From a virus, in IMG/VR virus record IMGVR_UViG_3300042445_002197, positions 1 through 31,352 of that record: a stretch of 31,352 bases of DNA. One strand, written 5' to 3'. Below the pieces are notes generated by a model. It was not told the origin of the DNA, did not search any database, and worked only from the letters and a program-made list of their open reading frames with translations. Shown here in pieces: positions 3,786 through 28,269 of this stretch (its first letter is position 1; each line of letters begins with the position of its first letter). A program made the position numbers and the translations under genes.

Positions 3786-3796
3786 ATTGGTTGGCT

Positions 3797-4606
3797 ATGC
3801 CTACTACTGGTGATTTTCCGTTACAGTTGTCATTACCGACAGGTGCTGACCCTGTAGATGTTTCTGTGTTGAACGCTAACTTTGAGAAGGTTAATGATTA
3901 TGCTGGAGAGAACGATACAGACATTGCTGCTATTACTGCTAACAATTGGGTTTCTACTAGCCGTATCGCTGATTCTGCTGTTACAACCGCTAAGATTGCT
4001 AATGCTAATGTTACGGCCGCGAAACTCGAAGCAACTTTAAACCTTACTGGTAAGACTGTTTCGGTTGCTGCCCCGTCTGCTGGTGCGCACGCTACGACTA
4101 AAACTTATGTTGATGCTCAGGATGCCGCCACACTGGCTTCGGCTAACACATATGCTGATGGTAAAATTCCTGGTTATGTTGTATTGGCTTCGGGTTCTTG
4201 GAGTGGGGCTGCTCCAACTGTCCCAACTTTGACTACGACTAATTATCGTCAACTTGTTGTTCTGGTAACTTTGTTAGTTAATGGTGGCGGTTTTTCTGAA
4301 ATGACGGTAAGTTTTACTGGGTTGACAAGTTATGACCAAGTAATTTCAAGTTTTGGTTCAACCTCTTTAACTACTTCAACCGCACAAACAAGTTTAAACC
4401 CTGGGACGATGCCGACCGGAACTGGATTTGTTGTTGAAGTTGACTACCCTGGACTTGCAATTAGGAAGACTATCACTGGCCGTTCAAACGTCAGAACTAT
4501 CAGTGCTCGCAGCACTAACGCCGCGGCTGTCACTGGTGTTACGTTTACTGTTCAGGGCAGTGCTTCAGGTGCTTCAGGCACGTACGAAGTGATCGGCGTA
4601 CGCTAA
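3797..4606 (+). CDS. Tail fibre-like protein
   Basis: 269 residues from the ATG at 3797; a TTG at 3791 would add two residues and sits a little closer to GAGG (3774-3777), so the start is uncertain. The N-terminal ~60 residues are compact. Residues ~50-130 carry the repeated linker pattern common in tail fibres (SRIADSAVTTAKIANANV, ATTKTYVDAQ), likely a trimeric stalk. The C-terminal half is Thr/Ser/Gly/Val-rich and predicted beta-structured, suitable for a receptor-binding tip. No chaperone or peptidase domain is seen. It is followed by a metallophosphoesterase, an arrangement partly mirrored at the right edge of the window after the second fibre gene. Confidence 0.65.
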   Translation: MPTTGDFPLQLSLPTGADPVDVSVLNANFEKVNDYAGENDTDIAAITANNWVSTSRIADSAVTTAKIANANVTAAKLEATLNLTGKTVSVAAPSAGAHATTKTYVDAQDAATLASANTYADGKIPGYVVLASGSWSGAAPTVPTLTTTNYRQLVVLVTLLVNGGGFSEMTVSFTGLTSYDQVISSFGSTSLTTSTAQTSLNPGTMPTGTGFVVEVDYPGLAIRKTITGRSNVRTISARSTNAAAVTGVTFTVQGSASGASGTYEVIGVR

Positions 4607-4666: not shown

Positions 4667-5620
4667 ATGCAAGATTTAGCCTGGACTCCAATCCATCGTG
4701 CACAACCGATTAAGTTAAACCTCAACAAAAACCCTCGCCCGAAAAGTGGTGGTTGGCGGGTAGCCGTAGCATTACCAGACCCACAGATTGGGTATCGTCA
4801 GTTGGGCAAGAAACTTGACCCTTTCCATGACGAGAAAGCAATGAATGTTGCTCTGCAGATTGTGGAGTGGTTGGCTAAGCACGACAGAGTTGACGAAGTA
4901 GTTAACCTGGGTGACTTCATTGACCTTCCAGCACAGGGCAGGTTTGAGCAGGAAGCAGCGTTTGCTTTTACTACACAGCATGCCATTGATCGTGGTTACA
5001 AATTCTTGCAAGAGCAACGGGCTGCGGCTGGTGCTAATGCCAAGATTATTCTGATTGAGGGTAACCATGACAGGCGTATGGAAAAGTTTATTGTTTCTAA
5101 CGCTGCAAGCGCTTTTGGTTTAAAACGTGCAGACACGAACGAGATGCCTGTAATGTCTTTGCCTTACTTGTTACGTCTAGATGAAATTAAAGTGGAGTAT
5201 ATTGATGCCTACCCTGCCGGAGCGTATTGGCTCAACGACAGGCTTCGTGCCGTCCATGGAACGAAGGTTCGTTCTAATGGGTCGACTGCAGCAGCCTACA
5301 CGAATGCTGACCCGCACATCTCAACCATCTTTGGGCATGTTCACCGTCAAGAACTCCAATCCAAAACAGTCTTCGACCGGCTTGGACCAATCAAGTCGAT
5401 AGCCGTCTCTCCTGGCTGTTTGTGTCGAGTTGATGGTGCTGTGCCGTCTGTGAATGGTTCTACAAAGATTGATGGGTCTCCTGAAACCTATTTTGAGAAC
5501 TGGCAACAGGGTATCGCTATTGTTTCGTATAAGAAGACTGGCGAGTTCTTTGCTGATCTTGTACAGATTAATGATGGTAAAGCGTTGTTCCGTGGCAAGG
5601 AGTTTGTCGCTAAGTTGTGA
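4667..5620 (+). CDS. Calcineurin-like metallophosphoesterase (copy 1)
   Basis: 317 residues, with GAAAGG eight bases before the ATG. The metallophosphoesterase motifs appear in order: D38-x-Q40 in PDPQ, GDFID at 82-86, GNHDRR at 132-137, a His at 197 and GHVH at 223-226. Together these would hold a two-metal centre that hydrolyses phosphoesters; substrates in this superfamily include nucleic acids, nucleotides and proteins. The first motif is D-x-Q rather than D-x-H. The gene follows a fibre gene and precedes the lysis genes, unlike the recombination setting of SbcD/Mre11 nucleases, and no partner ATPase is seen. A close paralogue starts at 30514 with the same motif spacing. Substrate unknown; fold assignment is strong. 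Confidence 0.85.
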   Translation: MQDLAWTPIHRAQPIKLNLNKNPRPKSGGWRVAVALPDPQIGYRQLGKKLDPFHDEKAMNVALQIVEWLAKHDRVDEVVNLGDFIDLPAQGRFEQEAAFAFTTQHAIDRGYKFLQEQRAAAGANAKIILIEGNHDRRMEKFIVSNAASAFGLKRADTNEMPVMSLPYLLRLDEIKVEYIDAYPAGAYWLNDRLRAVHGTKVRSNGSTAAAYTNADPHISTIFGHVHRQELQSKTVFDRLGPIKSIAVSPGCLCRVDGAVPSVNGSTKIDGSPETYFENWQQGIAIVSYKKTGEFFADLVQINDGKALFRGKEFVAKL

Positions 5621-5889: not shown

Positions 5890-6531
5890 ATGGCTAATCT
5901 TCACCCCGCACTAGTCAAAAAGGGCATTGAGCCTGGAACTGTTGCAGCATTTCTTGCTGTAGCACAGTTCTATGTTGGCACCAAGGAAAAGCCTAAGAAC
6001 AGTAACCACACCATTTTTGGTGCTTGGTATGGTGTTCAGACTGCTTGGTGTGCAATGTTTGTTTCTTACTGCCTAAACCACTCGGGCAATGGTAAAACCA
6101 TTAATGGTGCACAGTCCAAGAAGGGTTACGCGCTGTGCTCTAAGGGCATTTCTTGGTTTAAGAGGAAGAAGGCTTGGTTCCCTGTGAAGCAGGCTAAGCC
6201 TGGCGATGTTGCTTTCTTTGACTGGAATAATGACCACGCTCCTGACCACACTGGTATTGTGGTGAAGGTTGATCTGAAGCGTAAGCGTGTGTTGACCATT
6301 GAGGGTAACACTGGTCCTTCTAACTTGTCTAATGGTGGCATGGTTATGAAGCAGTGGCGTTCGATGTCAGTAATTATTGGCGTTGGCCGTCCAGCGTTCC
6401 CTGCGGCTGTTGTAGCCGCTCCAAAGACTCCACCGGCACCTGTAGTGGTTGAGGCAGTAAAACCTGTCCTTGACCCTGCTGTGGCTGCTTTGGTGGCTAA
6501 ACTCGAGGCTAACCCTAAGGAAAATATCTAA
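5890..6531 (+). CDS. CHAP-domain endolysin
   Basis: 213 residues. A CHAP/NlpC-type cysteine peptidase or amidase spans about residues 15-170: catalytic Cys54 in AWCAMFVSYC, His120 in DHTGIVVKV and an acidic/Asn partner in IEGNTG (138-142). GDVAFFDW (105-112) is the usual strand before the His. The C-terminus (175-213) is a Pro/Ala/Val-rich tail without a recognisable wall-binding repeat. No signal peptide is present, so release would depend on a holin. It cleaves peptidoglycan cross-links or the amide linkage. It lies between two membrane-protein genes and its stop overlaps the next start (TAATG), forming a lysis cassette. Confidence 0.9.
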   Translation: MANLHPALVKKGIEPGTVAAFLAVAQFYVGTKEKPKNSNHTIFGAWYGVQTAWCAMFVSYCLNHSGNGKTINGAQSKKGYALCSKGISWFKRKKAWFPVKQAKPGDVAFFDWNNDHAPDHTGIVVKVDLKRKRVLTIEGNTGPSNLSNGGMVMKQWRSMSVIIGVGRPAFPAAVVAAPKTPPAPVVVEAVKPVLDPAVAALVAKLEANPKENI

Positions 6532-7680: not shown

Positions 7681-7716
7681 GAAAACCCGCCCCAGGAAGA
7701 CTACGGGCGGGTTTTC
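7681..7716. terminator. Bidirectional terminator between convergent operons
   Basis: A perfect 12-bp stem GAAAACCCGCCC / GGGCGGGTTTTC with a 12-base loop. Because the stem begins with A residues and ends with T residues, a U-run is made in both directions. It lies 11 bases after the last plus-strand gene and 11 bases after the giant minus-strand gene, so it probably ends both operons. Confidence 0.85.
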
Positions 7717-7727
7717 TGCTTTTGGGG

Positions 7728-10700
7728 TTACTGTTGCAAGTCAGTCATGGTGGCAACGTATTCTTGCCAACCCTTGTTACGGTTTTCGATAGTGTCGCGC
7801 TCTTTGATTCGTAGACCGGTCAACCAGTTCAAAATAACCAGGTTTGTGTCTTTGGTGACTTGATCGGTAGTTTTCCCAACGTTTGATGCTCTTAATGCTT
7901 GCCCCGCAATTTGAGGAAAGAGCATTGCTGCAAGTTGATGTTCTGGACCTAAACCAAGTCGCTTAAACGCGTCTTCAACCAAAACTGGCATTGTTTCTTT
8001 TGTCCAACGGCCGCCCTGGGTAATTGGGGTTCCGTCCATGGTTTTGCCATTGAAATAGTCAAGAGGTAGGGATGCGGCGATAGGTAGCGATGCTATAGCA
8101 AAACGGTCCCAGGTTGCGCCAATGCTTTGACCTATCTGATTGGCAGGACTGTCGTAACCATTAAAACGAATTCCTGATAACCAACTGCCTGTTCCTAGTA
8201 GGTCTGTTGCAGGGTTGGATATGGTGAACGTGCGGAGTCGCCCGTCTTCATCAATGTATGTTGGGTCCATGTTTCCGCGAAGGTAACTTGGAACCAGTCC
8301 TGCTGGGTCAAAGTCACCAAACTGCTCAAGTTCCGCGCCCTGAGACTGCATGATTCCGTACTGGGCTTTTAGTCCAATAAGGATTGGCCCTGGTCTGTCT
8401 AGTAGGTTCATCATTACTGTTCCTAGAGTTTTGGCTCTCCAGGTGTAAAAAAGGATTCCCTGTCGCAAGTATTTTTGTGCAACATAACCTAGTCCCTGCA
8501 TTTGTGGGTGTATGCGGTTTACTTCTTTTGCTGCGTATTTAAATCCGTCGTCTAGGGTTTTCCAACTTGACTTTTGCAGGATTGAGGTGAACAGCGCAAC
8601 ACGCAACCAGTCGTCTCGCCCTGCAGCAACTTTTGCAATTTTGGTGTCAAAACGAGTGCCAAGCCCTGCGCGTTTGATTTTACCTAGGCTGCTGCCTGCT
8701 TCTCGTAGTGCATCGGTTCCACCTGCTTGAGTTTTTGGCACCGCACCTGCCCGCATAACGTAACCTTTACCAATAGCGTCGTAAGAAATTGCAACATCTT
8801 TTCCGCCTACCCTGATGACTACGCTGTTGTTAACAGTTGGGTCGTTTTCTGGGCGCACCTGGAACTCTTTTAAAGCAGGGGCAACTTTGAACTTATCAAT
8901 TGCTTTTAAAGCCTCTGCCTCGTCGATACCAATTTTTTCTACGTCTGCCCCCATTGCTTTCAGTATTTGTAACGAACGGTAATACGCTAATGGGCTTGCG
9001 ACGCCACCAGCGATAGCATTCCAAACAAAACCACCACCAGTGTTCTGGATCCAGTTTTTAGCAGTATAAGTAGTTGACGCTTTTTTCATAAAGTCTTGGA
9101 AGGGCTGGAAGAACAGCAAGAATCTACCAAAAGGGCCAGTTTTTTCTAAGTGCTTTACTCCAGTAAGGAATTTGGCTAGTTCTTGAAGTTCTGCAGCAAT
9201 CTGGCGAGGAATGTAATAACCTCTTGGAAGCAAGTAGATTAGTTCTTTTCCGTCGCTAGGGAAGGAAAGCGGCTTTATAGTTACCAAGTCTAGTTCTCTT
9301 GCCCGGGCGGGAGTAATGGAATCGATTGCGGTTCCGAAGGTGTCGATAACGCTGGCAGCAGAGGTTTGTAGTTCTTCACTGCGGCGCAGAGCAGCGTGGA
9401 TACCTACCAGGAAGTCGAATGGGTTTTGGATGTCCCATTCTTTCCATTGGTTAACAAAGTCTTCAGTGTTGCCCCTCTTCTGAAACTTCCAACCGTCGCT
9501 CAGGCGTTTAGGCTGTAGAACTTTCTTACCTGCTTCGTTTACTACTTCTTCCATGACTTCACGGTAGTTACCGGCACCCAGTTCACCAATGATGCGGTTC
9601 ATGATTACTTCGTTGTAGTTTGAGGATCGACCGATAAGGTTGCGCTGACCGCCACCAAAAATGGTTTTTGCAAACATCCAAACGTCTGCTACAGCCTCTT
9701 TAAGCAGCGTGTCGTCTGGTCCGATGAAGTCATCCAAAAGTTTTGCATCCTCAATTAGGTCAGCATATTCTCTCTTTGTAACCTTTTTGGCTAAAGGCTT
9801 TCCTGCTTCTGAGGTCAAGTTTTTTAGTCGACTCATAGCGGTCAAGGCTTTTACCAAAGATTCTTCTGGAGCCTGTTGAATAACTTTAAAAGCGTCTACT
9901 AAAACTTTTCTACCAGTCGCAGATTCATCTGCCGCATATTTAGGCATAATGCTGACAACATGCCTTGTAACATCTTCAGCGAACTGGGCTGTAGTGTTTT
10001 TAGTGTTTAGCGCAATTGCGGTAAGTGCATCACGGGTGTACTCCATTCCGTGGTTAGCGAACAGTTTAAACGTGTTGTTCATGGCTGAAATCCAGAAGTT
10101 TAACGAGAACTTGTTGTGACGGCCTGCGGTTTCGTTCAAACCAATTTCGTAGAGAAGGTCGTCATCTGCACCCATTTCGATGGCTTCATCAATTTTTTGA
10201 GCAAATGAGTCTTCAAAGATTACGTCTCGAGAGTCTTTTAGTGAGTCCAGGCGGGAGCCTGCTAGCCCTTCCTGGAACTCTTTAAGGGTTTTAGCCTCAG
10301 CACCTAGGACAATTCCGTCGGTGCTTTCTTTGGTTAGGATCATTTCTAGTGGACCCATTTTTGCACCGATTGCGGCGTTTAGGTCTAGGCGCGCCAACGC
10401 TTCCACAATAGGCTCTACTTGTTCGAATCCTAGTGCGTCGTTTAGTTCTTTTGCTGAGTCGATGACGGCTTGCATGTTTGTTCCGCTGCCGGACATGTTG
10501 CTTTCAAGCATTTTCTGCAAGTTAGTGATGATTGGCTTGCTAATCTTGTTTGCGTCGTAACGTAGTCTCTTGAAGGCAAAGGTGGCGTTTGCGGTGTGTC
10601 GTTTAAAGAGTTCCATAGCGTTTTCTGGTTTGGCTAGAACACCAACTACGTCTTCAATGATTTGGGTTACTCGCGCAAGACCTTTTTCGTCGGTAACGAG

Positions 10701-13700
10701 GCTTCCGATTGGGTTGCCTTTATCGTCAACTCCACGGGTAATTGTTTTGATGTCGTTAAACATTAGTTCACGCATCATGTACAGAAGGTCGCGGGCTTGC
10801 TCTTCAGAGAACCATTCGCCTTTTCGGTGGTGCATTGCCATCATTAGCGCACGCACTGGAGAGTAAAGCGAGGTGATTGGGATGCTGTTCATCGGACCTA
10901 CCGCAAACATGTTCTTAAACAGTGTTGGGCCTAGGACTTCGCCAATGTCTGCCATGGTTACGTAGGATCCGTAGTTTCCTAGTGCTCTTTTGCCTTCTTC
11001 GCTGATGTTTGACAACTTTTGACCAGTTGCTTTTATCAGGGTTGATAGTTCATTTTTGCCGTACAGGGTTAGGGTTGAACTTGGGTAGATGCCTCGGGCA
11101 TTTAACCATAGGTCGCGGAGGCGAAGAACCATAATGGCGCTTTCCGCAATGAACTGCTGGCGGCGAGGGTCTGCTACGTTGCGGAAACCTTTGTCTTCCG
11201 CAATTTTGCTTAGAGTTGAGAACATTAGTTTCTCTGACTCGTAAAGGTTTTCTTTATCAAAGTTGAGTTTGTAAGCAGCGTTTTCTGGGATTTCACCTTC
11301 GGCTGCCATTTGTTCAAGTTTGGCTTTTGAATACTTTGAGCGATACTGTCTACCCAAGATGTCTTCTTCAAGGAATTTTGCAATAGGCTTTTGACCTAAC
11401 CAACCAAAGTTACCTTTAACGTAACGGCCTACAGCAGTTCCACCAACAGCGCCAGCCAGGTCAATGATCCAAGATTGACCTGAAGCCTTTAGTTGGTTAA
11501 CTGTGGTTAGGAGCAGTTCGTAGGACTGGTCTACTGTGACTTCGTCATCAGGTAGGTCGTCCATCATTTTGCGAATAACGTCACCGTTTGGAACAACTAT
11601 TTCGCTAAAGAAGTCTGCAGTTCTAGCATCTCCGATTAAGAAAGTGCGCAACTGGCTGCGGCTCTTACTTAGGAACTCTAGAACATCTTTGCGTCCTAGT
11701 ACTTTGTCTGGCTTAATTAACTTGTCTGCACCCTTAATTCCAAGGCTGACTAGAATGTTTGCAATCTGTTCCTCAGTTGGGACAGGCTTACCGGTCTTCG
11801 GGTTGATCTGCCCAGGCTGTAGTTTGCTGTCTTTTCTTGGTAAGTAACTGTCGATTACGTCTTTGTAACTCTTGTATGGGCTGTTTCGACCAACTTTAGT
11901 CATGTTGATAAGGTGCTTCATTGCTGTAGCCCACTGGTCTTTGTCAGCAGAGGTCATGATTTCTTTGTTGCGAATCCAGGAAACGAACAGGCGGGGGTTG
12001 CCGTTTGCGATAACATCGTCAACGCTGGCTTTTCCGTCCCAGTTTGCAACAGGGTGTTTCACAACATCAGCATCTATTGCATCTTCAAGTTTTTTGACAA
12101 TCTTTTCAAAGTTTTCTTTTCTCTTTGAAAGTTTTTCTATACCGAGTTCGCCTTGTGTTACGGTGCGGGCAACTGCTTCTCTTCTGACTAGCGCCTGGTC
12201 TACTACGTTTTCGGCTAGGCTCATGTCGGTTGCGTGCCAGAAGCGTGCGTGGAGGTTTGCGCCGACACGTTCGATTGAGGTTTCGCTAACACGGATTTCT
12301 TGTTTGATAAAAGCGGTTAGGGACTTTAGGTCTACTGATAGTGGGAGTGAGCGGGCTGCTTCTTTTTTGGCGTCTGCTCGGGCTGCAGCGTTGACTGCTC
12401 TGTCGTAGTTTGACTCACGGACTCTGCGGATAAGGTTTTCTGCTACAACTTGCTGTGGTTCTTTGCTTTTGCCAGGTTTTGGCTTTGGAATGGCTTTTAC
12501 CGCCTGAATTAACCTCGCCACGTCGACGTGAGAGACTTCTGTTCCACTGGCAGGTACAAACACCTTCTCGCCCCTCTTAAGCCCTCCTAGGGTCTTCTGG
12601 AGGCTTTCTCCGAGTTGTGCGACTAAACCTCTGGTTATTTCGTCCAAAGCAAGAATTGTGTTTCCTAGCGCTTTTTCTGCGGCTTTGACGGCTTCTGGGA
12701 AGTCTGGGTTGATTAGATCGCTTGCCCGAACAGAGTTGCCGCCCATTAACCTTTCATTGTAAGTTTTTTGCGGCATAAGAACTTTGCCGGACATCCAGCC
12801 ATCGAGTTTTACTTTGCGGGCAGCAACGTCTTCGAGCAGGTCAGCATATAGTGCTTCTGCCTCTTTAATTAGGCGCTCTTCGTTGGCTAGAATCACCTTG
12901 TTTGACAGTTTGTTACCTGTTTGGCGACCAATGTTTCTAGTGTTGGTTTCAACTGAGTGGAGAAGGGCTGGGGTTACAAACTCAGTCCAAGCCTCATCCT
13001 TGGACAGTTCAACTATTGCAGCGGCTTGTTCCGACTTTTTCCGAATAGTGCTGAGCAGAGGGATGCCTGCCCTTTGAGCCAGCATGTCAATGTGGTCTGC
13101 GAAACGGCCACCTTCAAGTGAGTATTGGTGGCGGCTGGCAGAGTAAGCGTATGCAATGAACTCTGAACGCTGTCGATCGGCTGACTTTGCTTCTACGTGT
13201 GCAAAAACTTTTGGTAAAGCACTTCGGCTGAGTTGCCCCATACGGCTACTTCTGGTCCTAGTTACTGCAGCAAAGATTGCAGCAGCATCACCGTTTGGAG
13301 ATAAACCTAAAGCGTCCAAGTCAATTAGTGCTTTAATCTTTTTTGCATTCAACTGTTCCAGGTAGTCGCTTGCTTTCTTTATGTCGGCAGGGCTGACAAG
13401 TTCGGTGCGAAGTTTGTTGCGCTTCAAAGCGATGTCCATCAACTCAATGATTTTGTCGTCGTTAAGTTTGGTGATGTTCTTTGAGGTAATAACGGTTTTC
13501 TTACCGTTTATGTCTAAGGTTATGGTTTTCTTGTCGGCTTCTGCAGAAAGCAACTGGCGGGCTTTAGTGAACTTTTGGGCAGAAACTTGGGAGAGGGCTT
13601 CAGAGATTTTGTCAATGTCTACCCCTCTTGCACTGTCAACTACTTCAAGGGCTTCTTTTGGTAAGCCGATGCGGCCAAGGATGTTTAGAACAGACTTGTC

Positions 13701-15827
13701 TCGGATTGAGCCTGCTGCGGCTAACATTAGTGAATAAATTTCACCCTTTTGCATAGGGGTAACTTCTCGTTTGGCGGCTGCTGCCGCTTTTGCTTCCAGG
13801 TCAGTCGATGGCATGTTGAAACTTCTGATGCTTTCAACTGAAGACTTTAGAGGGTTAAAACCTGATTCACCGATTCGTTCGATAGTGTATCGGGCGCTTC
13901 CTGCGCCACCTAGGATGCCGGCTCGGTAGGTGATTCGGGCGGCTAGCAAAGACAGGGAAATACCTGCGTCTATTAGAGAATCTGCAGTAAGCGAGTCGGC
14001 AGGTAAGGCTTCGTCAATGTTGAAGTTTTTATCTCCACGGATTTCACGCAGACGCTGCCAGTCGTTCGCCAGGTTGTCGGGACCCCAAACTTTACTGGCA
14101 CTGTTTTTCTGCAAGTCTTTTTGGAAACGCTCCAAGAATACGGCTTCTTCACCGCTAGGTTTCTTGTCAATTCCAAGTAAAGTTCTAGGGTTAACTTTTT
14201 TACCCGAGGGGGCACCCTCAACCGCATCGTCTGTTTTCTTTGCACGGCTTGCTCTGAACCCGATAGGTTGTGAAGTTGCTTCATCCAAGAACTGCAGAAA
14301 TTCACGGTTTTCTGGGTTTTTGATGAAGTCATCCCAAACCTTTTTAACTGCTTCGTCGCTGCCTTTAGCGCCACGGGCAGCGTTCTGCAACGCAATACCG
14401 AGCATTGCGACAGGTTTTGCTGCCCGAACTTCAACATCAGGGCGAGAAACACGGTAAACAGGGGCGCGACCAGGAAAACTCTTTGCCACTTCGTCCGCAG
14501 CACGCTGAACAGCACGCTCAACAGGGGTGATGCCGAGGTCTGCTGCTTCTTGTGCAATGGCAGCCTGTGAAGTTTTACCCAACACTGCTTTAAACTTTGC
14601 AGCAACTTTAGGGTCGGCAAAAGACCTTGCGATGTCGTCTAAGTCTTTTGACTGTGAAGAAAGAATGTCATCAACGACTTCTTGAGGCAGGTTTTTGGCT
14701 TCTAGTTCTGCTTTTCTGGTGGCAAGGATTTCATCGGTGTAGTCTTTACCGATCCTTAGAATGTCTTCTTCTAGGAAGTCTGTGTCGTTTAAGTTTTCGC
14801 CTAGTTTTTTTGCGAGACCTGTGCGGAAACCAAACAAGGTTGTTTTTGCGGCTAGGCGGGCTTCGGCTTGTAGGTGGGCTTCTTTAAATCCACGACCCAT
14901 TTCTTTAAGAATGTATAACGCTGGGTTGGTGTTACCAATAGTGTATTTTGGTGCAGGTAGCGGGACAGCGTTTTCTACTCGCTTGCGAAGTTTTTTGCCT
15001 TCAACTTTTTTGAGTGGTTCGTAGAATGGGCGTGGGAGGTTCTGTACGTTTTTTAGAACTTCTGCAGCGTTGCCACCAGATTTTGCGTATTTGGTGGCGG
15101 TTGATACACCTCTGGATAAACCTTTTACGGCTCCACCGATACCTAATGTTGCGAAGGAGGCTGGGTCGAGAACAATGTCTAGGGTTGTTCCTACTGTGTT
15201 TAGTGGAGTCCATTTACCTAATAGGCCGTCCCAGTATGGGGTGTCGTCTAACCAGTTGTTGTTTCTTTTGAATTCTTCGCTACGGAAGATGTCTGTGTAG
15301 GATTCGGGTAGTGGTCGTTTATCGACTGGGTCGATCATTTCGTCGAAGCCTGGGATGACCGAGTTGGCTAGACCTTGACCAAAACCTACTGCCATGTCTA
15401 CGATTGAGGAACCGTACTCTAAAGCAACTTTTCCTACGTCTTGGTCTTCAATTGCAGCCATCACTTCGTCTTGGTGGCTGAAGCCTCGGTCGCTTGCTGT
15501 CATTGCGGCTCGACCGATTCCGGTGATTACTCTGAATGCGTAACCTACGGCCCCTAGTCCGCCTTCGACAACGGATTGACCTAGGTTGTATTCGGGGCCT
15601 TTGGGGGCTGGTGCGATGGCTTCTGCAGATATTGGTAGTCCACCGTCTGCGACGACAGGAGTGATGGGTTGGTTTGGAGCGCTTTGGATGTAGTCGGCTC
15701 TGCTGAGAGCGCTGGAAGGGGCACCATATCTGGCGTTGATAAATTTGGTGACGTTTGCGGGGAGTGCGGTTGGTATCTTGACGGATACTTTTGCGTTTAC
15801 GTCAGGTGCGTTTAGTTTGTCTGCCAT
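7728..15827 (-). CDS. Giant putative internal virion / DNA-ejection protein
   Basis: 2699 residues, the largest gene here, taking a quarter of the window, with AGGAAGG five bases before the ATG. It starts with a Pro/Ala-rich tail (1-80). Gly/Ala-rich hydrophobic stretches follow at about 81-115, 130-165 and 210-250 that could insert in membranes, then very long Lys/Glu/Ala/Leu helical sequence. Near residue 2450 a Trp/Arg segment (GILFYTWRAKTL) followed by LLDRPGP stands out; I associate similar segments with other giant phage virion proteins. Last in the late operon, after nozzle and internal-virion-type genes, it fits an ejected protein like T7 gp16 or the N4 virion polymerase, but no transglycosylase or polymerase motif is evident. 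No frameshift is seen. Structural role inferred from size and position. Confidence 0.6.
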   Translation of the reverse strand: MADKLNAPDVNAKVSVKIPTALPANVTKFINARYGAPSSALSRADYIQSAPNQPITPVVADGGLPISAEAIAPAPKGPEYNLGQSVVEGGLGAVGYAFRVITGIGRAAMTASDRGFSHQDEVMAAIEDQDVGKVALEYGSSIVDMAVGFGQGLANSVIPGFDEMIDPVDKRPLPESYTDIFRSEEFKRNNNWLDDTPYWDGLLGKWTPLNTVGTTLDIVLDPASFATLGIGGAVKGLSRGVSTATKYAKSGGNAAEVLKNVQNLPRPFYEPLKKVEGKKLRKRVENAVPLPAPKYTIGNTNPALYILKEMGRGFKEAHLQAEARLAAKTTLFGFRTGLAKKLGENLNDTDFLEEDILRIGKDYTDEILATRKAELEAKNLPQEVVDDILSSQSKDLDDIARSFADPKVAAKFKAVLGKTSQAAIAQEAADLGITPVERAVQRAADEVAKSFPGRAPVYRVSRPDVEVRAAKPVAMLGIALQNAARGAKGSDEAVKKVWDDFIKNPENREFLQFLDEATSQPIGFRASRAKKTDDAVEGAPSGKKVNPRTLLGIDKKPSGEEAVFLERFQKDLQKNSASKVWGPDNLANDWQRLREIRGDKNFNIDEALPADSLTADSLIDAGISLSLLAARITYRAGILGGAGSARYTIERIGESGFNPLKSSVESIRSFNMPSTDLEAKAAAAAKREVTPMQKGEIYSLMLAAAGSIRDKSVLNILGRIGLPKEALEVVDSARGVDIDKISEALSQVSAQKFTKARQLLSAEADKKTITLDINGKKTVITSKNITKLNDDKIIELMDIALKRNKLRTELVSPADIKKASDYLEQLNAKKIKALIDLDALGLSPNGDAAAIFAAVTRTRSSRMGQLSRSALPKVFAHVEAKSADRQRSEFIAYAYSASRHQYSLEGGRFADHIDMLAQRAGIPLLSTIRKKSEQAAAIVELSKDEAWTEFVTPALLHSVETNTRNIGRQTGNKLSNKVILANEERLIKEAEALYADLLEDVAARKVKLDGWMSGKVLMPQKTYNERLMGGNSVRASDLINPDFPEAVKAAEKALGNTILALDEITRGLVAQLGESLQKTLGGLKRGEKVFVPASGTEVSHVDVARLIQAVKAIPKPKPGKSKEPQQVVAENLIRRVRESNYDRAVNAAARADAKKEAARSLPLSVDLKSLTAFIKQEIRVSETSIERVGANLHARFWHATDMSLAENVVDQALVRREAVARTVTQGELGIEKLSKRKENFEKIVKKLEDAIDADVVKHPVANWDGKASVDDVIANGNPRLFVSWIRNKEIMTSADKDQWATAMKHLINMTKVGRNSPYKSYKDVIDSYLPRKDSKLQPGQINPKTGKPVPTEEQIANILVSLGIKGADKLIKPDKVLGRKDVLEFLSKSRSQLRTFLIGDARTADFFSEIVVPNGDVIRKMMDDLPDDEVTVDQSYELLLTTVNQLKASGQSWIIDLAGAVGGTAVGRYVKGNFGWLGQKPIAKFLEEDILGRQYRSKYSKAKLEQMAAEGEIPENAAYKLNFDKENLYESEKLMFSTLSKIAEDKGFRNVADPRRQQFIAESAIMVLRLRDLWLNARGIYPSSTLTLYGKNELSTLIKATGQKLSNISEEGKRALGNYGSYVTMADIGEVLGPTLFKNMFAVGPMNSIPITSLYSPVRALMMAMHHRKGEWFSEEQARDLLYMMRELMFNDIKTITRGVDDKGNPIGSLVTDEKGLARVTQIIEDVVGVLAKPENAMELFKRHTANATFAFKRLRYDANKISKPIITNLQKMLESNMSGSGTNMQAVIDSAKELNDALGFEQVEPIVEALARLDLNAAIGAKMGPLEMILTKESTDGIVLGAEAKTLKEFQEGLAGSRLDSLKDSRDVIFEDSFAQKIDEAIEMGADDDLLYEIGLNETAGRHNKFSLNFWISAMNNTFKLFANHGMEYTRDALTAIALNTKNTTAQFAEDVTRHVVSIMPKYAADESATGRKVLVDAFKVIQQAPEESLVKALTAMSRLKNLTSEAGKPLAKKVTKREYADLIEDAKLLDDFIGPDDTLLKEAVADVWMFAKTIFGGGQRNLIGRSSNYNEVIMNRIIGELGAGNYREVMEEVVNEAGKKVLQPKRLSDGWKFQKRGNTEDFVNQWKEWDIQNPFDFLVGIHAALRRSEELQTSAASVIDTFGTAIDSITPARARELDLVTIKPLSFPSDGKELIYLLPRGYYIPRQIAAELQELAKFLTGVKHLEKTGPFGRFLLFFQPFQDFMKKASTTYTAKNWIQNTGGGFVWNAIAGGVASPLAYYRSLQILKAMGADVEKIGIDEAEALKAIDKFKVAPALKEFQVRPENDPTVNNSVVIRVGGKDVAISYDAIGKGYVMRAGAVPKTQAGGTDALREAGSSLGKIKRAGLGTRFDTKIAKVAAGRDDWLRVALFTSILQKSSWKTLDDGFKYAAKEVNRIHPQMQGLGYVAQKYLRQGILFYTWRAKTLGTVMMNLLDRPGPILIGLKAQYGIMQSQGAELEQFGDFDPAGLVPSYLRGNMDPTYIDEDGRLRTFTISNPATDLLGTGSWLSGIRFNGYDSPANQIGQSIGATWDRFAIASLPIAASLPLDYFNGKTMDGTPITQGGRWTKETMPVLVEDAFKRLGLGPEHQLAAMLFPQIAGQALRASNVGKTTDQVTKDTNLVILNWLTGLRIKERDTIENRNKGWQEYVATMTDLQQ

Positions 15828-15844
15828 GTTGCCTTCCTACGACA

Positions 15845-15850
15845 AGTATA
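15845..15850 (-). promoter_or_regulatory. Possible -10 box before the giant gene
   Basis: TATACT on the minus strand in the 30-base gap between the 381-residue gene and the giant gene. It would start transcription near 15838, leaving a short leader containing AGGAAGG. No good -35 is visible. The giant gene could therefore have its own promoter in addition to read-through. Confidence 0.3.
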
Positions 15851-15857
15851 GCAGTTG

Positions 15858-17003
15858 CTAGGGGACTATTGACATGTTATTGCCAGGTGAACCAAAACTA
15901 GGAACCTGGTTAGTGTAGTCGCCAGTAATCATTCCTGGGGTTAGTCCAGTTAACTGAGCGTAGCGAGTTAGTATCTGAGGCATTGGCGGGCTACCAATTT
16001 TACCTTGACCATTGCGGACTGCAGTCTGGTAAAGGTCAGTCATCATAGCGTGGTAACCTTCAGAACCCTTAGAGTATCTTGCGGTTGCCTCTCCAGGAGC
16101 CTTCCCGTCAAATGTTGCAGGGCTCTTGTAGGTGGGGCTGTAAAGGCTTCTGTTGATAAACTCGTCCTGTTGTCTGCGGTTGTCAATAAACTTGTTAATT
16201 TCAGGTTTAGTTAAACCGGCTTCAGTCTTTAGGATGTTCTTAAGTTTGTCCGTCTGAATACCCATCAACAGTTTGCCCTCATCCGTAAGTTTACGGACAG
16301 CAACACGAGACTTTTCGGAGCGGATAGCGTTGTTAATGTTTTCGTTAGCGAAGTCCAGGTTTTCTTTCATGCCAGTGGTGATCTGGTTGCGGGTGTTAGC
16401 CACACCAGTCTTCATATTTTGTCCCTGCTGTAACGCTGTTTGCTTCTGTGAAGTTAACAAACCTTGCAAGTTTTGCCCCTGACCGAGCAAAGTTCCCATT
16501 GCTTCGTTCAAAGCGCCCGTAGACTGGTAGTCCCCTAGAGCCATTTCGTTCTCTAAACCTAATTCTCTAGCGCCCTGTGTTCTGCGAGCGTTTTGAGCAG
16601 CAAGTTCTGAAGATAAACCAGCAACCATACCCTGAGTGCGTTCCCCAGCCTGCTGTATTCCTGTGTCGTAGGACTGTTGCAAAGTAACATTGTCCGCTTC
16701 AACGTCAGAAGTTAACTGACCGTACATGTTTTCAACATCGGCACGGTTAGTTTTGTAAAGTTTAGCCTTATCTCTCTTCTGTTGAGTCAACTGGTTGATT
16801 AAACCCATGTTTGGCCCACCAGTTAGGTAAGAATAGTTGCCGTAAGTGTCGCTTTTTGCTGAAAGGTAGTCACCCATCGCTGTTTCGGAGGGGGTGATTC
16901 TGGCAACAGCATCGGCATACGCTTGATTTGCCTTGCTTGTAGCAATGTTTTCAGCGTTTCCTGCGCCAATTCGCCCTAATGAGTCGTCTCTAAGATCAGC
17001 CAT
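15858..17003 (-). CDS. Putative internal virion protein, helical, Gln-rich
   Basis: 381 residues, predicted mainly helical with many Gln, Asn, Ala and Gly (TLLGQGQNLQGLLTSQ, TALQQGQNMKTGVANT) and no Cys or obvious membrane segment. The N-terminus contains a Tyr/Gly stretch (SDTYGNYSYLTGG). The C-terminal ~60 residues are Pro/Gly-rich. Composition and position between the nozzle block and the giant gene resemble the smaller internal-core proteins of short-tailed phages (the gp14/gp15 type), which form the ejection channel with the largest protein. There is no recognisable domain, so the assignment is contextual. Two bases separate it from the preceding gene. Confidence 0.5.
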   Translation of the reverse strand: MADLRDDSLGRIGAGNAENIATSKANQAYADAVARITPSETAMGDYLSAKSDTYGNYSYLTGGPNMGLINQLTQQKRDKAKLYKTNRADVENMYGQLTSDVEADNVTLQQSYDTGIQQAGERTQGMVAGLSSELAAQNARRTQGARELGLENEMALGDYQSTGALNEAMGTLLGQGQNLQGLLTSQKQTALQQGQNMKTGVANTRNQITTGMKENLDFANENINNAIRSEKSRVAVRKLTDEGKLLMGIQTDKLKNILKTEAGLTKPEINKFIDNRRQQDEFINRSLYSPTYKSPATFDGKAPGEATARYSKGSEGYHAMMTDLYQTAVRNGQGKIGSPPMPQILTRYAQLTGLTPGMITGDYTNQVPSFGSPGNNMSIVP

Positions 17004-17005
17004 GA

Positions 17006-17518
17006 TTAACCCTTAATTTCGTTTAGTTTGCGACCGGCTTCGGTGCCAATAAACTTGCTAATAATGTCCCAAATAGCGTTGTTACGCATTTCTTGGTCTT
17101 GAGTATCTGACATTTTATTAGTGTCAAGCAGGTTTTTAAGTTTCTCAGTTTCGCTAAGTTTTGCTTCAGTCGTTGCCTGGAAAGCCCTATCGTCAGCCCG
17201 CACATAACCACCGCTTCTTTGCAGCCCACGGGCAGCATAGTTGTTGGCGATACCTTTGTATGCGTCGATAGCGCTACGGTCAATCTGTTTTAAAGCGTTT
17301 TGAAGAGACAGTGCACCCTGTGTTTCTTGGTAGTTACGGAGGGCTCGGTTGTTTGACAACTGGCTTTCAGTTTGGCTTACCTGTTGCATCTCAGGTATGC
17401 CCAGTGCGTAACCTTGAGAAATTCCAGAACTCGTACCTGTAGCAGGTTTAGGGGCGGTTGCCCTGTTTATACCCTTTGAGCCAGTAATGTTTGGGTCGGC
17501 TTTAATCGAATCTACCAT
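17006..17518 (-). CDS. Putative virion-associated protein, 170 aa
   Basis: 170 residues starting in a one-base overlap with the preceding stop. The first ~45 residues are Gly/Ser/Thr/Pro-rich and probably flexible. The rest is helical with Gln/Asn-rich heptads (QVSQTESQLSNNRALRNYQ) and a basic Arg/Gly stretch (NYAARGLQRSGGYVR). Low complexity and absence of catalytic motifs fit a structural or internal-core component. It forms a cluster with the 73- and 381-residue genes that ends at the giant gene. Family not recognised. Confidence 0.5.
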   Translation of the reverse strand: MVDSIKADPNITGSKGINRATAPKPATGTSSGISQGYALGIPEMQQVSQTESQLSNNRALRNYQETQGALSLQNALKQIDRSAIDAYKGIANNYAARGLQRSGGYVRADDRAFQATTEAKLSETEKLKNLLDTNKMSDTQDQEMRNNAIWDIISKFIGTEAGRKLNEIKG

Positions 17519-17739
17519 TAACTCTTACCGATCTGCGATTTAGGTTTTGCAAACATGCGGGCACTATTCTTACCCTGAACCCATTTTAGCATGGCTGAGT
17601 TCTTTGCGCGCTGTTTCATTGAACGTTCTTTATAACCCTCTTTGTCAAGTTTCATACCTGTGTTAGGTCCTGATACGCCAATACCGTACTGTTTTGGTCC
17701 TGCTGCGTACTTGTTAAATCCTGATCCGCCTACGTTCAT
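17518..17739 (-). CDS. Small basic virion-region protein, 73 aa
   Basis: 73 residues, joined to both neighbours by one-base overlaps. The N-terminal half is Gly/Lys/Tyr-rich (GGSGFNKYAAGPKQYG); the C-terminal half is basic and possibly helical (KERSMKQRAKNSAMLKWVQG). No domain is recognised. Tight coupling to the nozzle gene suggests it is made with the tail genes; it may be a small virion or assembly protein. Confidence 0.55.
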   Translation of the reverse strand: MNVGGSGFNKYAAGPKQYGIGVSGPNTGMKLDKEGYKERSMKQRAKNSAMLKWVQGKNSARMFAKPKSQIGKS

Positions 17740-19292
17740 TATGCTACCTGTCCCATCGTCATTCTACGTCCAGCCTGGATGTACAGGACTAGCCCATCAA
17801 CGGTTGATGGTGAAGTGTATTGTGAGCCATCGTTCTCAAAAGTAACCTCAAATGATGCTCGTTTAAAGGTTTGTTTACCCGAAATTTTTACTACGATTGG
17901 CACAGGGTAGTTGGTTTGCAACCCGTTAATGAACGTTGATTCGGGGGCTCCAATAGGGTTCCAGGTGTTGGCTAACACAGCCGACCAGGTTGATGAAATG
18001 ATTTGACCCCAAGTTGTGCTAGTTGTGTCCCTGTAGTCGATTGGGGTTAGGGTTGCTTTTAGATAGTCAACAATGGTGCCAGCGAACTCCCAGCCGAAGA
18101 GTCGTTTAAATTTGGTTGGTAACCCCATGTCGTATGTTGCGGTACGAATGGTGGAAACAATTGTTTCGGTGTCTGTTAGGTGTTCTAATCTTATTCTTAG
18201 CAGCGTGGTTGCTGTGCTGTCGCCTACTTTTCTTGCCGAAACACCGAAGGCTGTAGTTGGTGACCCTTCGGAGATGATGCTTCCGTAAGGTGCTTCTAAG
18301 AAGTAGTACGGGGACAGTAGGCTGGTCCAGGTTGTCCACGTTGATGTTTCAGTGTTGTAACAGTACGTAATGCCTGAGTTCCAGACGAGCAAGTATGGAC
18401 CGACTTTGGACAAAGTTGTTTTGACGTTCCAGGTTCCTTCGCCTTTAAACTCCACTTTTTGGGTGTTGTTTATTGGGTAATAGTTGTATCCAGCAAAGTT
18501 GTATAACGTTCCGGCATACAGGACGGCGTAAGTGTTATCTGTTTTTGTAACACAGAACTCGTTGTCTACTCCGATAGAAGTAGACAGAGCGCTTAATGAT
18601 CCGTCAGTGGGTTCTGCTGAGGCTCCGAACGCTAAACGCCAGGTTGAGTTGCTGCGGAAGATAAAGATTTCACTGTTTCCTTCGATGAGACGGATCATGT
18701 TCTGTCCGTCACCTTCGCTAACATCAATGAAGTTGCCGACAGGGAACTGGTCAATTGAGGTTCCAGCAGACACTGAAGTGATTTCGCTGTAACGAATGGT
18801 TGAAGTGTTACCTAGGGCGCGGCTAGAAATGTAGATTCTGCCCATCATTGCTAAGATTTGGTTACCTGCAGGCATTGCTGCAACTGTAGTAAAGGTGTAA
18901 CTTCCGCTAATCTTTGACCAGTAGCCACCTGCGCCACCTGTACGAACAAGGTATAAGCGGTTGAGGTAGGTTGTCATGTCGGCTGCCCCGAAAGCCCAAA
19001 TCTCTGTAAAGGTTCCAGCAGAGATGTTGTAAATACTGGTCTTAGTGTCGTTGGCTACAACAACAAAAGCCACTCCGTCTTCGTTGCGGAAGTTGCCAAG
19101 GATGCGCATACGACCAGTTCCTAGTGGGGAAACTGTGGTTGAAACGATTGGCGGTCTGCTAACTACTTTACCGTTTGGGGAAATAACTACGTTGTTAGCG
19201 ATTGAGAGTTCGTTCTCTTCAATGAGGGTAGGGTTGTTGGCGTTATTTAGCCCGCCAGTGAAATTAGATAGAACAACGCCTTCCCTGGACAT
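17739..19292 (-). CDS. Tail nozzle protein
   Basis: 517 residues, almost wholly beta-strand in pattern. It opens with NFTGGLNNANNPTLIEENEL, typical of podophage nozzle or stabilisation proteins (T7 gp12 / P22 gp10 type). Repeated blades of Gly/Thr/Trp/Tyr sequence follow, including NRLYLVRTGG, GNSEIFIFRSNSTWRL and LYAGTLYNFAGYNYYP, suggesting a beta-propeller. A DGLVLYIQAGRR stretch closes the protein. In such phages six copies extend the tail tube below the adaptor and hold DNA in. It directly follows the adaptor gene with a one-base overlap, the canonical order. Confidence 0.75.
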   Translation of the reverse strand: MSREGVVLSNFTGGLNNANNPTLIEENELSIANNVVISPNGKVVSRPPIVSTTVSPLGTGRMRILGNFRNEDGVAFVVVANDTKTSIYNISAGTFTEIWAFGAADMTTYLNRLYLVRTGGAGGYWSKISGSYTFTTVAAMPAGNQILAMMGRIYISSRALGNTSTIRYSEITSVSAGTSIDQFPVGNFIDVSEGDGQNMIRLIEGNSEIFIFRSNSTWRLAFGASAEPTDGSLSALSTSIGVDNEFCVTKTDNTYAVLYAGTLYNFAGYNYYPINNTQKVEFKGEGTWNVKTTLSKVGPYLLVWNSGITYCYNTETSTWTTWTSLLSPYYFLEAPYGSIISEGSPTTAFGVSARKVGDSTATTLLRIRLEHLTDTETIVSTIRTATYDMGLPTKFKRLFGWEFAGTIVDYLKATLTPIDYRDTTSTTWGQIISSTWSAVLANTWNPIGAPESTFINGLQTNYPVPIVVKISGKQTFKRASFEVTFENDGSQYTSPSTVDGLVLYIQAGRRMTMGQVA

Positions 19293-19951
19293 TATTCGTC
19301 CTCTGGAAGAACAACCTTAGTAGGGTAAAAATTTACGTCTACAGTGTTTTCTTGAGTCATTTGGCGGTTCATTGAGTCACGGAAACGCTGGTCTTGGTAA
19401 GACATTGCTTGCCAGTTCTCATCCAAACGGTATGCCTGGCCTAGAACGTAATCCATTACTTGGTTGTAGAAACGGTCAGGAACCTGCAAAAGGTCATTTA
19501 AACCTGTAAGGTTCTGTGGATAAGCAATGTAGTAAAGGGTAAGAGCACCTACACCATTTTCGTTTGCTGAAGGGTAAATGTAGATGTCGCCGTCCCATTC
19601 GTACCAAACCTTAGGGTCGCCTGTGGCTTCCATGTCAGGGTCGTCAGCACTAATGGTTTCCTGAGCCGCCTGGAAAGAGATTGCTTTTAGCGGGACACCT
19701 TTGTAGTGGATTCCTTGAATCTGATATACCGGGCTGTTCTCTGGAAGGGCGTAAAGGGTTTGACCTGCAACAACATCGGATGCTGCGCTACCTTTTAAAG
19801 TCTGGTTACTGCTGGCGATCTCTCGCTGCGCAGCGTTAACCCAACGTAACAAGTCAGCGCTTTTAAGTTCAACTAAAGCCTCATCGCCAAAGATACGTTT
19901 AACGTCTTCGGCTACTTCGTATGCTGTGCGTGTGTAAGATTCTCTAGGCAT
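19292..19951 (-). CDS. Head-tail adaptor / tail tubular A-like
   Basis: 219 residues. The N-terminal helices (YEVAEDVKRIFGD, ADLLRWVNAAQREI) followed by a beta region (LYALPENSPVYQIQGIHYKG, KVWYEWDGDIYIYPS) and a C-terminal helix (DYVLGQAYRLDENWQAMSYQ) match the ring-forming adaptor proteins of short-tailed phages (T7 gp11, P22 gp4 functional class). These dock on the portal and receive the nozzle. It lies between the capsid and nozzle genes as expected and overlaps the preceding gene by eight bases. Confidence 0.7.
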   Translation of the reverse strand: MPRESYTRTAYEVAEDVKRIFGDEALVELKSADLLRWVNAAQREIASSNQTLKGSAASDVVAGQTLYALPENSPVYQIQGIHYKGVPLKAISFQAAQETISADDPDMEATGDPKVWYEWDGDIYIYPSANENGVGALTLYYIAYPQNLTGLNDLLQVPDRFYNQVMDYVLGQAYRLDENWQAMSYQDQRFRDSMNRQMTQENTVDVNFYPTKVVLPEDE

Positions 19952-20484: not shown

Positions 20485-21738
20485 TTAGATACCTGAAGCG
20501 ATACCTGAGATTACACCGTGAGTGTTACGACGGTAAGTCGAGATCTCAGAGTAGTTACGTAGGTACGCAATGAAGGCGTCACGACGTGGAACTTGCTTCC
20601 ACTTCGAACCGTCTTCATCGATCCATTCCCAACCACGGTTAGTGTTTAGGTTGATCTTCTTCTGGTTAACAAACCACATCTTACCATCTGGTGCGTCGAA
20701 GTCAGCCTTGAATGGTAGGTCACCGAACTCGGTCGCAAAACCTAGTCCACGGTTACCACCATCGAGGTCTACCTTGTTCACGTACCGACGACGGTCCTGA
20801 AGGGTCTTCCAGTATCCGTTCCATGAACCGTGGTCGGTCCAGATAACGTCTGGCTTGTCGCCTTCCTCAGCAATGCTAGTAACCATACCGATCATGTCTA
20901 GTTCGGTGATCTGCTGTGGCACGCTTGAGACAGAGATGTCGTCAACCTTTGCAGCCCATGAAGGAGTGGTTGCAGGGTCGATTCCGTGAAGGACGCTGGT
21001 GTTGCTGATTAGAGCACCGAATCCAGACCATTCCTTCTTCCAGTTGTTAACCTGAGTTGCCGAGGTTGAGTTCGAACGAACAACAGCCGAACCAACAGTA
21101 ACGCTCGCAGCAAGGTTGCGGTCGAAAGTAACTACCTTGGTAGCCTTGTTGATTCCGGTTACAGTCATGTAACCGGCGGTGTGAGCAGGGGTTGGTACTG
21201 TGTTTACTAGCGAGGCAGCAAGTAGAACGTCTACGCGCATACCAATGTGAATGTACTTCACGCTGTCTAGTGCTAGGGTAGCCCCAGCAACAGTGTTGGC
21301 AGTTGCAACCTTTGCTAGAGTTCCAGTGCCGTCTCCGAAGATCTGGCGGTTCTGGTCTTTAGCAATGTCGTCGCGAATGCGCTCGATTTCTTCTGAAGTT
21401 ACGTCAGCGAAGGTCTGGTAGTTCTGTGAAGCCTGAGCCATAACCTGACCGGTTAGGCGTACGGATCCATAGAACGACTTTAGACCAGTCTGGCCTTCTT
21501 GGTACTGCTGGTTGCCAGCCTCTGGTAGGTCTTCGTCTTCACCACGTGCACCAATACCAGTGTTACGACCTACGTGTGCAACAAACTTGACACCTAGACC
21601 ACCAACCTGAGTAATGTTACGAGCGCTTGACTTAATACCATCCAGTGCTGGAGTTGCGTTATTGATTTGTTCGTTAATGTCACCGTAAACGTCTTTAAGG
21701 ATTACGTTGGCAATAGCGAGGTTCTGACCATCGGCCAT
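20485..21738 (-). CDS. Major capsid protein, HK97 fold
   Basis: 417 residues. The long helix with a following FGDGTG (134-139), the N-terminal arm (INEQINNATPALDGI) and a C-terminal beta domain (WFVNQKKINLNTNRGWEWID) fit HK97-fold capsids. Residues ~150-225 form a Val/Thr/Ala-rich beta segment (HTAGYMTVTGINKATKVVTF) resembling an inserted beta-barrel domain that could stabilise capsomers or face outward. No N-terminal protease-processed delta domain is evident, in keeping with a separate scaffold gene immediately upstream. A good ribosome binding site (AGGAGTG) precedes the ATG, in a 98-base gap that may hold a separate promoter. Confidence 0.85.
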   Translation of the reverse strand: MADGQNLAIANVILKDVYGDINEQINNATPALDGIKSSARNITQVGGLGVKFVAHVGRNTGIGARGEDEDLPEAGNQQYQEGQTGLKSFYGSVRLTGQVMAQASQNYQTFADVTSEEIERIRDDIAKDQNRQIFGDGTGTLAKVATANTVAGATLALDSVKYIHIGMRVDVLLAASLVNTVPTPAHTAGYMTVTGINKATKVVTFDRNLAASVTVGSAVVRSNSTSATQVNNWKKEWSGFGALISNTSVLHGIDPATTPSWAAKVDDISVSSVPQQITELDMIGMVTSIAEEGDKPDVIWTDHGSWNGYWKTLQDRRRYVNKVDLDGGNRGLGFATEFGDLPFKADFDAPDGKMWFVNQKKINLNTNRGWEWIDEDGSKWKQVPRRDAFIAYLRNYSEISTYRRNTHGVISGIASGI

Positions 21739-22942: not shown

Positions 22943-23121
22943 TAGTTAGTGTACCCTCCACCGCTCTTCTTATACTTTGTTGCTAACAGTTGTGCTTTAC
23001 GGGCTGACCATTCTCCAGGGTCGCCGCCTTTGGTACCAGCCTTGATGCGGTTAAAGAGCGCTTTACGCATTGCAGGGTTAGTATAGTTGCCTGCTTCGTT
23101 AACCTTTGACTTCTTTTCCAT
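22942..23121 (-). CDS. Small basic conserved-type protein, 59 aa
   Basis: 59 residues coded between the portal and the 78-residue gene with one-base TAATG overlaps at both ends. The product is basic (MEKKSKVNEAGNYTNPAMRK, GGDPGEWSARKAQLLATKY, SGGGYTN). The sequence NYTxPxMRKxLFxRIKAGxKGG followed by WSARKAQ looks like a conserved small phage family found beside portal genes in short-tailed phages; that recognition is from memory and unnamed. It leaves no gap between portal and its neighbours, supporting a real gene. Confidence 0.7.
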   Translation of the reverse strand: MEKKSKVNEAGNYTNPAMRKALFNRIKAGTKGGDPGEWSARKAQLLATKYKKSGGGYTN

Positions 23122-28017: not shown

Positions 28018-28269
28018 ATGGCAGAATCCCCAAATATTGAAGTAAATCAGTTGCATTTGTCGGCTGATACCGACACTGGGGCTACTGCTATCCATCATAC
28101 TCTTGGTCCGAAGCCTTTTCAAGCCTCACCTGGAAGTCACCGACATGATGGTAAAGATTCGGTGCGTTTAGATTTTAATGATTTAATGAATAGTTGGATG
28201 AACATTGATGGCGGTACGCCGTCAACGATTTATACTCCTATTCCTCACCTTGATGGAGGCGCAGTTTAA
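28018..28269 (+). CDS. Small fibre-associated protein, 83 aa
   Basis: 83 residues with no ribosome binding site, probably leaderless. The composition is polar with His-rich turns ([26 protein letters not shown]), a pattern met in short phage tail-fibre and baseplate-associated proteins that bind metal through His pairs. Its stop overlaps the fibre start (TAATG). It may be an adaptor for the collagen-like fibre or a small virion protein; no named family. Confidence 0.5.

Follow-up and report, generated by a model that had tools for sequence, protein, structure and literature searches.

A giant cysteine-free protein as the probable largest ejection protein of a podophage likely to infect Actinobacteria

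The late operon of the virus studied here ends in a gene for a protein of 2,699 residues, which raises the question of what a podophage would do with so large a product. The original prediction, made from the letters alone, had named this giant protein a possible ejected virion factor that might carry an undescribed enzymatic or channel function. Here we consider its gene position, its exchange between close relatives, its composition, its remote homology and its predicted structure. The window referred to throughout is the entire IMG/VR virus record of 31,352 bases.

RESULTS

The giant gene closes the late operon

The minus strand of 7728-15827 is uninterrupted for 2,699 codons from an ATG start, and the plus-strand reading of the same interval is full of stops. 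As originally proposed, the frame is the last gene of the late operon, which on the minus strand runs in the order terminase, portal, scaffold-like gene, capsid, 155-aa gene, adaptor, nozzle, genes of 73, 170 and 381 aa, and giant. The genes and the adjoining repeat are as follows.

26037-27554, minus strand: terminase large subunit
23121-25184, minus strand: portal of the P22/SU10 type (PF16510, E 2e-31)
20485-21738, minus strand: major capsid protein (PHROG 14242, E 4e-81)
19292-19951, minus strand: SU10-type adaptor (Pfam PF24175, E 4e-22)
17739-19292, minus strand: tail nozzle-type protein, 517 aa, assigned by position (PHROG 33544, unnamed)
17518-17739, minus strand: conserved 73-aa gene, directly upstream of the three-gene cassette described below, homologous to Jasmine gp26 and Shocker gp34
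17006-17518, minus strand: 170-aa partner, the small cassette protein, cysteine-free (profile match to Jasmine gp27, DS1 and Shocker gp35)
15858-17003, minus strand: 381-aa partner, the middle cassette protein, cysteine-free (profile match to Jasmine gp28, DS1 and Shocker gp36)
7728-15827, minus strand: giant protein, 2,699 aa, cysteine-free, last late-operon gene (open frame, ATG start)
7682-7715, no strand assigned: 11-bp inverted repeat AAAACCCGCCC...GGGCGGGTTTT, about a dozen bases past the stop codon of the giant, between convergent genes

By its sequence and placement the inverted repeat is a probable bidirectional terminator; the automatic hairpin scan omits it since its loop exceeds 8 bases. 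Eight full-length relatives from the giant's own lineage measure 2,599-2,844 aa, and because length is kept across relatives the frame is not the product of chance or of an assembly join. Within the protein, the following parts stand out.

14883-15575, minus strand: conserved N-terminal block, residues 85-315, Gly/Ala-rich and weakly hydrophobic (family alignments)
15108-15179, minus strand: region of the family signature DIVLDPASFATLGIGGAVKG, residues 217-240, of the form D-x2-x-D-P-x2-[YFL]
8385-8450, minus strand: FYTWRAKTLGTVMMNLLDRPGP motif, residues 2460-2481 (family alignment)
8019-9431, minus strand: C-terminal domain, residues 2133-2603, homologous to Saffermanviridae A-4L ORF26 (PDB 9k3a chain A) by hhalign

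The N-terminal hydrophobic Gly/Ala segments noted earlier are present as Gly/Ala-rich stretches (residues 86-104, 140-158 and 216-234), but their hydrophobicity is weak. The highest 19-residue Kyte-Doolittle mean in the giant is 1.35, below that of a typical membrane helix, and no classical membrane helix was found in the protein. The signature falls around residues 114-247 in all full-length members examined. A Trp/Arg-containing region with FYTWRAKTLGTVMMNLLDRPG, first placed near residue 2450, lies at residues 2460-2480 and belongs to the best-conserved stretches of the family, with F2460, T2462, W2463, K2466, L2476, P2479 and G2480 invariant in the alignment. No internal repeats were found.

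Some genes transcribed opposite to the late operon are recorded here as well. The plus-strand gene at 28269-30251 encodes a probable fibre, a cysteine-free protein of 660 aa in which a long region is made of collagen-like Gly-x-x repeats (GATGATGATG, GTNGTNGTNG). A pair of paralogous genes for calcineurin-like phosphoesterases occupies 4667-5620 and 30508-31350 (plus strand), the second cut by the end of the record; the two are about 71% identical over 270 residues, as judged via the copy in the related record G001.

A family of giant proteins in phages of Actinobacteria

By tblastn, the C-terminal fifth of the giant is also found in the phages Jasmine (Arthrobacter), DS1 (Cellulosimicrobium) and Shocker (Microbacterium), which, like about 40 IMG/VR contigs, carry members of the family. 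With the capsid protein as query, a scan yielded 31 related contigs; further loci came from the C-terminal alignments, an initial alignment of six distant members having been too diverse for scanning. Members range from 1,106 to 2,844 aa, the shorter ones being the more distant; all have the conserved C-terminal domain, and the middle is variable. The window's giant matches Jasmine gp29 over 565 aa (blastp E 8e-26) and shares with that protein's family the homologous C-terminal domain, the DxxxDPxxY N-terminal signature and the gene order. PHROG 36598 is matched by seven of nine lineage members; the window's giant taken alone fails to match it with HMMER. The order adaptor, nozzle, small gene, ~200 aa, ~400 aa, giant is identical in Jasmine, Shocker, DS1 and every relative that spans the region. 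Profile comparisons matched the neighbouring proteins of the window to Jasmine gp26, gp27 and gp28 and their equivalents (98.9% for the 73-aa, 94.6% for the 170-aa and 78% for the 381-aa protein), and the 170-aa and 381-aa partners had no match to T7, to N4 or to the cyanophage small internal protein. A search with two peptide patterns found no relatives of the C-terminal domain in bacterial or archaeal genomes.

Electron microscopy shows Jasmine to be a podovirus (PMC5513430). A WhiB protein (E 1e-16) is encoded in the near-identical record G001 (IMGVR_UViG_3300043438_001489). The WhiB family is not known outside Actinobacteria and their phages, so the host of the window virus is probably, or even very probably, actinobacterial. 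The early region of G001 also holds a glutamine amidotransferase gene adjoining a putative amidoligase gene (L056 4695-5834, 5932-7620).

Three genes are exchanged as a unit

The window was compared with G001, whose backbone is closest to that of the window. DNA identity is about 90-100% outside, and about 53% inside, the following interval.

7731-17518, minus strand: cassette of the 170-aa, 381-aa and giant genes, swapped as a unit relative to G001 (DNA and protein identity)

The drop in identity begins and ends at gene boundaries, from the giant's stop codon (7731) to the opening codons of the 170-aa gene (17518). Proteins encoded outside are nearly unchanged (capsid 100%, adaptor and nozzle 99%, 73-aa gene 100%, downstream endolysin 98%), against 50% for the 170-aa protein, 56% for the 381-aa protein and 38% for the giant. 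The giant of G001 is 53% identical overall to that of another relative, G002, and 39% identical to that of the window. Because the cassette of G001 is nearer to G002 although its backbone is nearer to the window, the divergence reflects exchange and not only fast drift. A second break is seen between two further relatives, L014 and L015, in which the capsid (100%) and 73-aa gene (97%) are conserved and the cassette genes fall to 43, 49 and 41%; here the nozzle is also down, to 74%. Taken together, the breaks in window/G001/G002 and in L014/L015 indicate that the three cassette genes travel together, and such joint transfer is expected for proteins that have to fit each other. The CHAP endolysin gene at 5890-6531 lies outside the cassette.

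Elsewhere the window and G001 diverge markedly only in the middle part (4001-4500) of a 271-aa fibre-like gene at 3791-4606 on the plus strand, where DNA identity is 54% at 4251-4500. The divergent part is possibly the receptor-binding region.

Cysteine is nearly absent from the cassette proteins

At the window's own rate, the chance of finding no cysteine in 2,699 residues is about 2e-6. The giants of the family together contain five cysteines in 67,214 residues, and the two sets of partner proteins none in 5,056 and none in 8,949. Similarly, the known ejection proteins T7 gp14/15/16, P22 gp7/20/16 and N4 gp50/51/52 have a single cysteine among all nine. The scaffolds of the same lineage are likewise cysteine-free (0 in 8,745 residues), so the absence is not specific to ejection; it favours an ejection role without proving it. 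The unrelated 4,490-aa giants of two actinophages, Burro gp27 (L107 4189-17664) and Akoni gp31 (L110 2985-16448), also have zero cysteines, and lack of this residue may characterise ejected phage proteins in general.

The C-terminal domain is homologous to a solved cyanophage protein

Residues 2133-2603 of the giant align with residues 388-898 of ORF26 of the cyanophage A-4L (hhalign 97.5%, E 8e-12), and controls, reversed or shuffled, stayed at 0.04-0.4%. With the window's lineage excluded, the distant members match ORF26 at 98.1%; the window's lineage alone reaches 3.75% against ORF26 and 100% (E 7e-47) against the distant members. The link between the giant and A-4L is thus by transitivity, via members of the DS1/Shocker type, and it spans about 470 of the giant's 2,699 residues.

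In PDB 9k3a, chain A is A-4L ORF26 and chain B its neighbour ORF27, and in 9k2v the A-4L proteins ORF28 and ORF29 are named 'Internal protein' and 'Internal virion protein'. Judging from these operon partners and from what the title of a paper conveys, chain A would lie inside the virion. These structures bear on whether the giant might instead act as a tape measure or belong to an external tail or fibre. Depositors have called cyanophage homologues 'tail protein' or 'tail fiber', and high divergence among close relatives could reflect receptor choice. However, the structure of the cyanophage homologue includes its neighbour, and the two proteins that follow in the operon are named internal virion proteins; fibre candidates, collagen-like and fibre-like, are present at 28269-30251 and 3791-4606; and podophages of this kind have no long tail to measure. 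We therefore regard an external or tape-measure role as very unlikely.

An AlphaFold2 model of residues 1500-2699 built from 34 sequences (pLDDT 73) is nearly all helix, which bears out the very long helical sequence noticed earlier. Among viral proteins in BFVD, Foldseek places highest the giants of the Jasmine type, of Shocker and, presumably, of DS1 (E 1e-20 to 1e-17). Much weaker are the matches to polyvalent-type proteins and to the Anabaena phage A-4L 'tail protein' (E 1.6e-6), the latter borne out by the profile comparison above. Against PDB, Foldseek gave no significant match for this model; 9k3a was absent from the list and is possibly not in the library. The model of the N-terminal 1,200 residues is of low confidence (pLDDT 63) and had no matches in BFVD. 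With Foldseek and VIA-align against PDB both models returned only scattered helical repeats, the best Z-scores of 7.5 and 6.0 being within the helical background.

We also asked whether the giant could correspond to cyanophage ORF27 and ORF26 fused together. The lengths fit (1,717 + 1,114), but the match to ORF27 is 11.8%, which is not evidence for a fusion; this weak match falls on the N-terminal signature of the giant.

No catalytic domain is found in the giant

Comparison of the giant with Pfam, PHROGs and PDB sequences returned nothing usable, and no convincing Pfam domain was present in nine full-length giants or 34 C-terminal regions. Two candidates were rejected, PF04157 (E 0.003, over 40 residues in one member only) and a low-scoring helical match to PDB 2r9i (E 0.012). 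By HMMER and hhalign the giant shows no relation to N4 gp50-52, T7 gp14-16, Burro gp27 or Akoni gp31. The checks first suggested for this protein, profile comparison with the N4 virion RNA polymerase and T7 gp15/gp16 and structure prediction, thus revealed no such relation and no confident PDB fold match to a polymerase or tape measure, only helical repeats. Pfam detected no transglycosylase or RNA-polymerase family in the giant and a simple scan no D-x-G-R or K-x6-7-YG pattern, as the earlier inspection by eye had concluded, and no peptidoglycan hydrolase was found within the cassette. The idea of an undescribed enzymatic function is not borne out, as no catalytic domain emerged from Pfam, PHROGs, PDB sequences or fold comparison, the last covering the N-terminal 1,200 residues, in a model of low confidence, and residues 1500-2699.

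These results weigh on two enzymatic or effector readings. One is that the giant has an activity of the N4 gp50 kind, as a virion RNA polymerase or another enzyme, and has diverged past recognition. Operon place and order resemble those of N4 gp50, as do the large size and the lack of cysteine, and one cyanophage homologue was deposited as 'DNA-directed RNA polymerase', a label without support in this analysis. With hhalign and HMMER comparisons to N4 gp50 empty, no RNA-polymerase family in Pfam and neither sequence pattern present, we consider such an enzyme extremely improbable. As to the label, the Pbo-yong3 homologues of ORF27 and ORF26 (L121 6830-11245, L118 1001-4144) are named 'mono-ADP-ribosyltransferase-like' and 'DNA-directed RNA polymerase' by their depositors. 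The latter name looks doubtful: Pfam finds no polymerase domain in the A-4L ORF26 homologue, and the family was solved in 9k3a as 'Tail protein'.

The second reading is that the giant is an injected polyvalent effector, acting on host defences or metabolism after entry and not as a conduit. Packaging and injection are described for polyvalent proteins (PMC5512222). In BFVD, Foldseek finds similarity between the C-terminal model and predicted phage proteins annotated as 'Large polyvalent protein associated domain-containing', ART-PolyVal, Zeta toxin and RelA/SpoT (E 1e-7 to 1e-4), and the middle of the giant differs strongly in length and sequence among members. Yet the TM-scores of these resemblances are low, about 0.3, the Pfam survey of full-length and C-terminal sequences revealed no enzymatic or LPD domain, and the gene moves jointly with two other virion-type genes, so that an effector of this kind seems unlikely. 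LPD38 (PF18857) gave no match to the giants in a search whose control was silent too.

DISCUSSION

In our reading the giant is likely to be the largest member of a set of three ejection (internal virion) proteins in an actinobacterial podophage, which is supported by the exchange of the cassette, the absence of cysteine and the C-terminal homology to 9k3a chain A. Position adds to this: as in T7, P22 and N4, the giant is the last and largest of small, middle and large genes that follow adaptor and nozzle. The original suggestion of an ejected virion factor is thus supported by gene position, cassette exchange, composition and remote homology to a solved cyanopodophage protein that probably belongs to the virion. 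Our literature search found no virion proteomics for the giant's family. From these comparisons we infer that the giant is present in the virion and ejected, and likewise the sequence of exit and what each of its regions does; by analogy, a channel role is possible.

As an ejection protein, the giant would be packaged with the 170-aa and 381-aa proteins in the head above the portal. On contact with the receptor the three proteins would leave via the short tail ahead of the genome, extended or partly unfolded, and might reassemble in the envelope to form a passage for the DNA. At the cytoplasmic membrane, the conserved Gly/Ala-rich N-terminal block, which carries the DxxxDPxxY signature, may be inserted or lie on the surface; the helical middle, long and variable, could span the thick wall; and the conserved C-terminal domain would serve as a docking or core part common to the cyanophage protein. 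More tentatively, a three-gene cassette that can be swapped may provide podophages of Gram-positive Actinobacteria with a genuine DNA ejectosome of several proteins, in which the giant would be the wall-and-membrane-spanning part, its core shared by descent with the cyanophage pre-ejectosome and its variable middle, as a spacer or as a specificity region, fitted to the host envelope.

Ejection proteins are described as a trait of podophages of Gram-negative hosts, with Mycobacteria also in the host list, and as lacking in phi29-like phages, whose Gram-positive hosts have a single-membrane envelope (review, PMC8954989). What is new here is the kind of host, the gene-precise swap of an entire cassette and the connection with a probable virion protein of a cyanophage. 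With an actinobacterial three-gene ejection cassette whose core is homologous to that of a cyanophage, the need of monoderm hosts for an ejectosome becomes testable, a set of giant 'hypothetical proteins' gains a likely role, and the cassette swap offers natural chimeras for asking which parts need matching.

Comparison with known systems

The closest counterparts are Jasmine gp29 (PHROG 36598, unknown function), Shocker gp37 and the DS1 giant, which share gene order, neighbours, N-terminal signature, lack of cysteine and actinobacterial hosts. Their C-terminal 450-570 residues are homologous to those of the window's giant (blastp E 8e-26 to 5e-13), but they are 1,743-1,803 aa long against 2,699 and the middle is not alignable. 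In the Saffermanviridae, A-4L ORF26, Pf-WMP3_25 and Pf-WMP4_31 contain the homologous core and are encoded by the last large gene of a similarly ordered late operon; they differ as separate proteins of 1,022-1,153 aa in phages of a Gram-negative-type host. The neighbouring cyanophage protein (chain B, 1,459-1,717 aa) could match the giant's N-terminal part, although at 11.8% this is not significant, and the cyanophage module has an M23/transglycosylase protein, none of which was found in the window's cassette.

Among the classical systems, the gene order of the window parallels T7 gp11-12-(13)-14-15-16, P22 gp7-20-16 and N4 gp52-51-50. T7 gp16 and P22 gp16 are likewise cysteine-free and the last and largest of three consecutive genes past adaptor and nozzle. 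T7 gp16 has a transglycosylase domain not found in the giant and no detectable sequence relation to it; P22 gp16 was compared by composition and position only. The N4 gp50 virion RNA polymerase is also a cysteine-free giant and third in its ejection operon, but the window's giant has no polymerase domain and no sequence relation to it. Burro gp27 and Akoni gp31 are likewise cysteine-free giants of actinobacterial podophages, unrelated in sequence and encoded before the portal instead of after the nozzle; Burro virions contain a ~250-kDa protein presumed to be gp27 or part of it (PMC7302621). The first impression of a protein far larger than a podophage internal protein therefore holds against T7 gp16 (1,318 aa) but not against N4 gp50 (3,500 aa) or the Burro and Akoni proteins (about 4,490 aa); its size is unusual next to T7 and normal for its own lineage.
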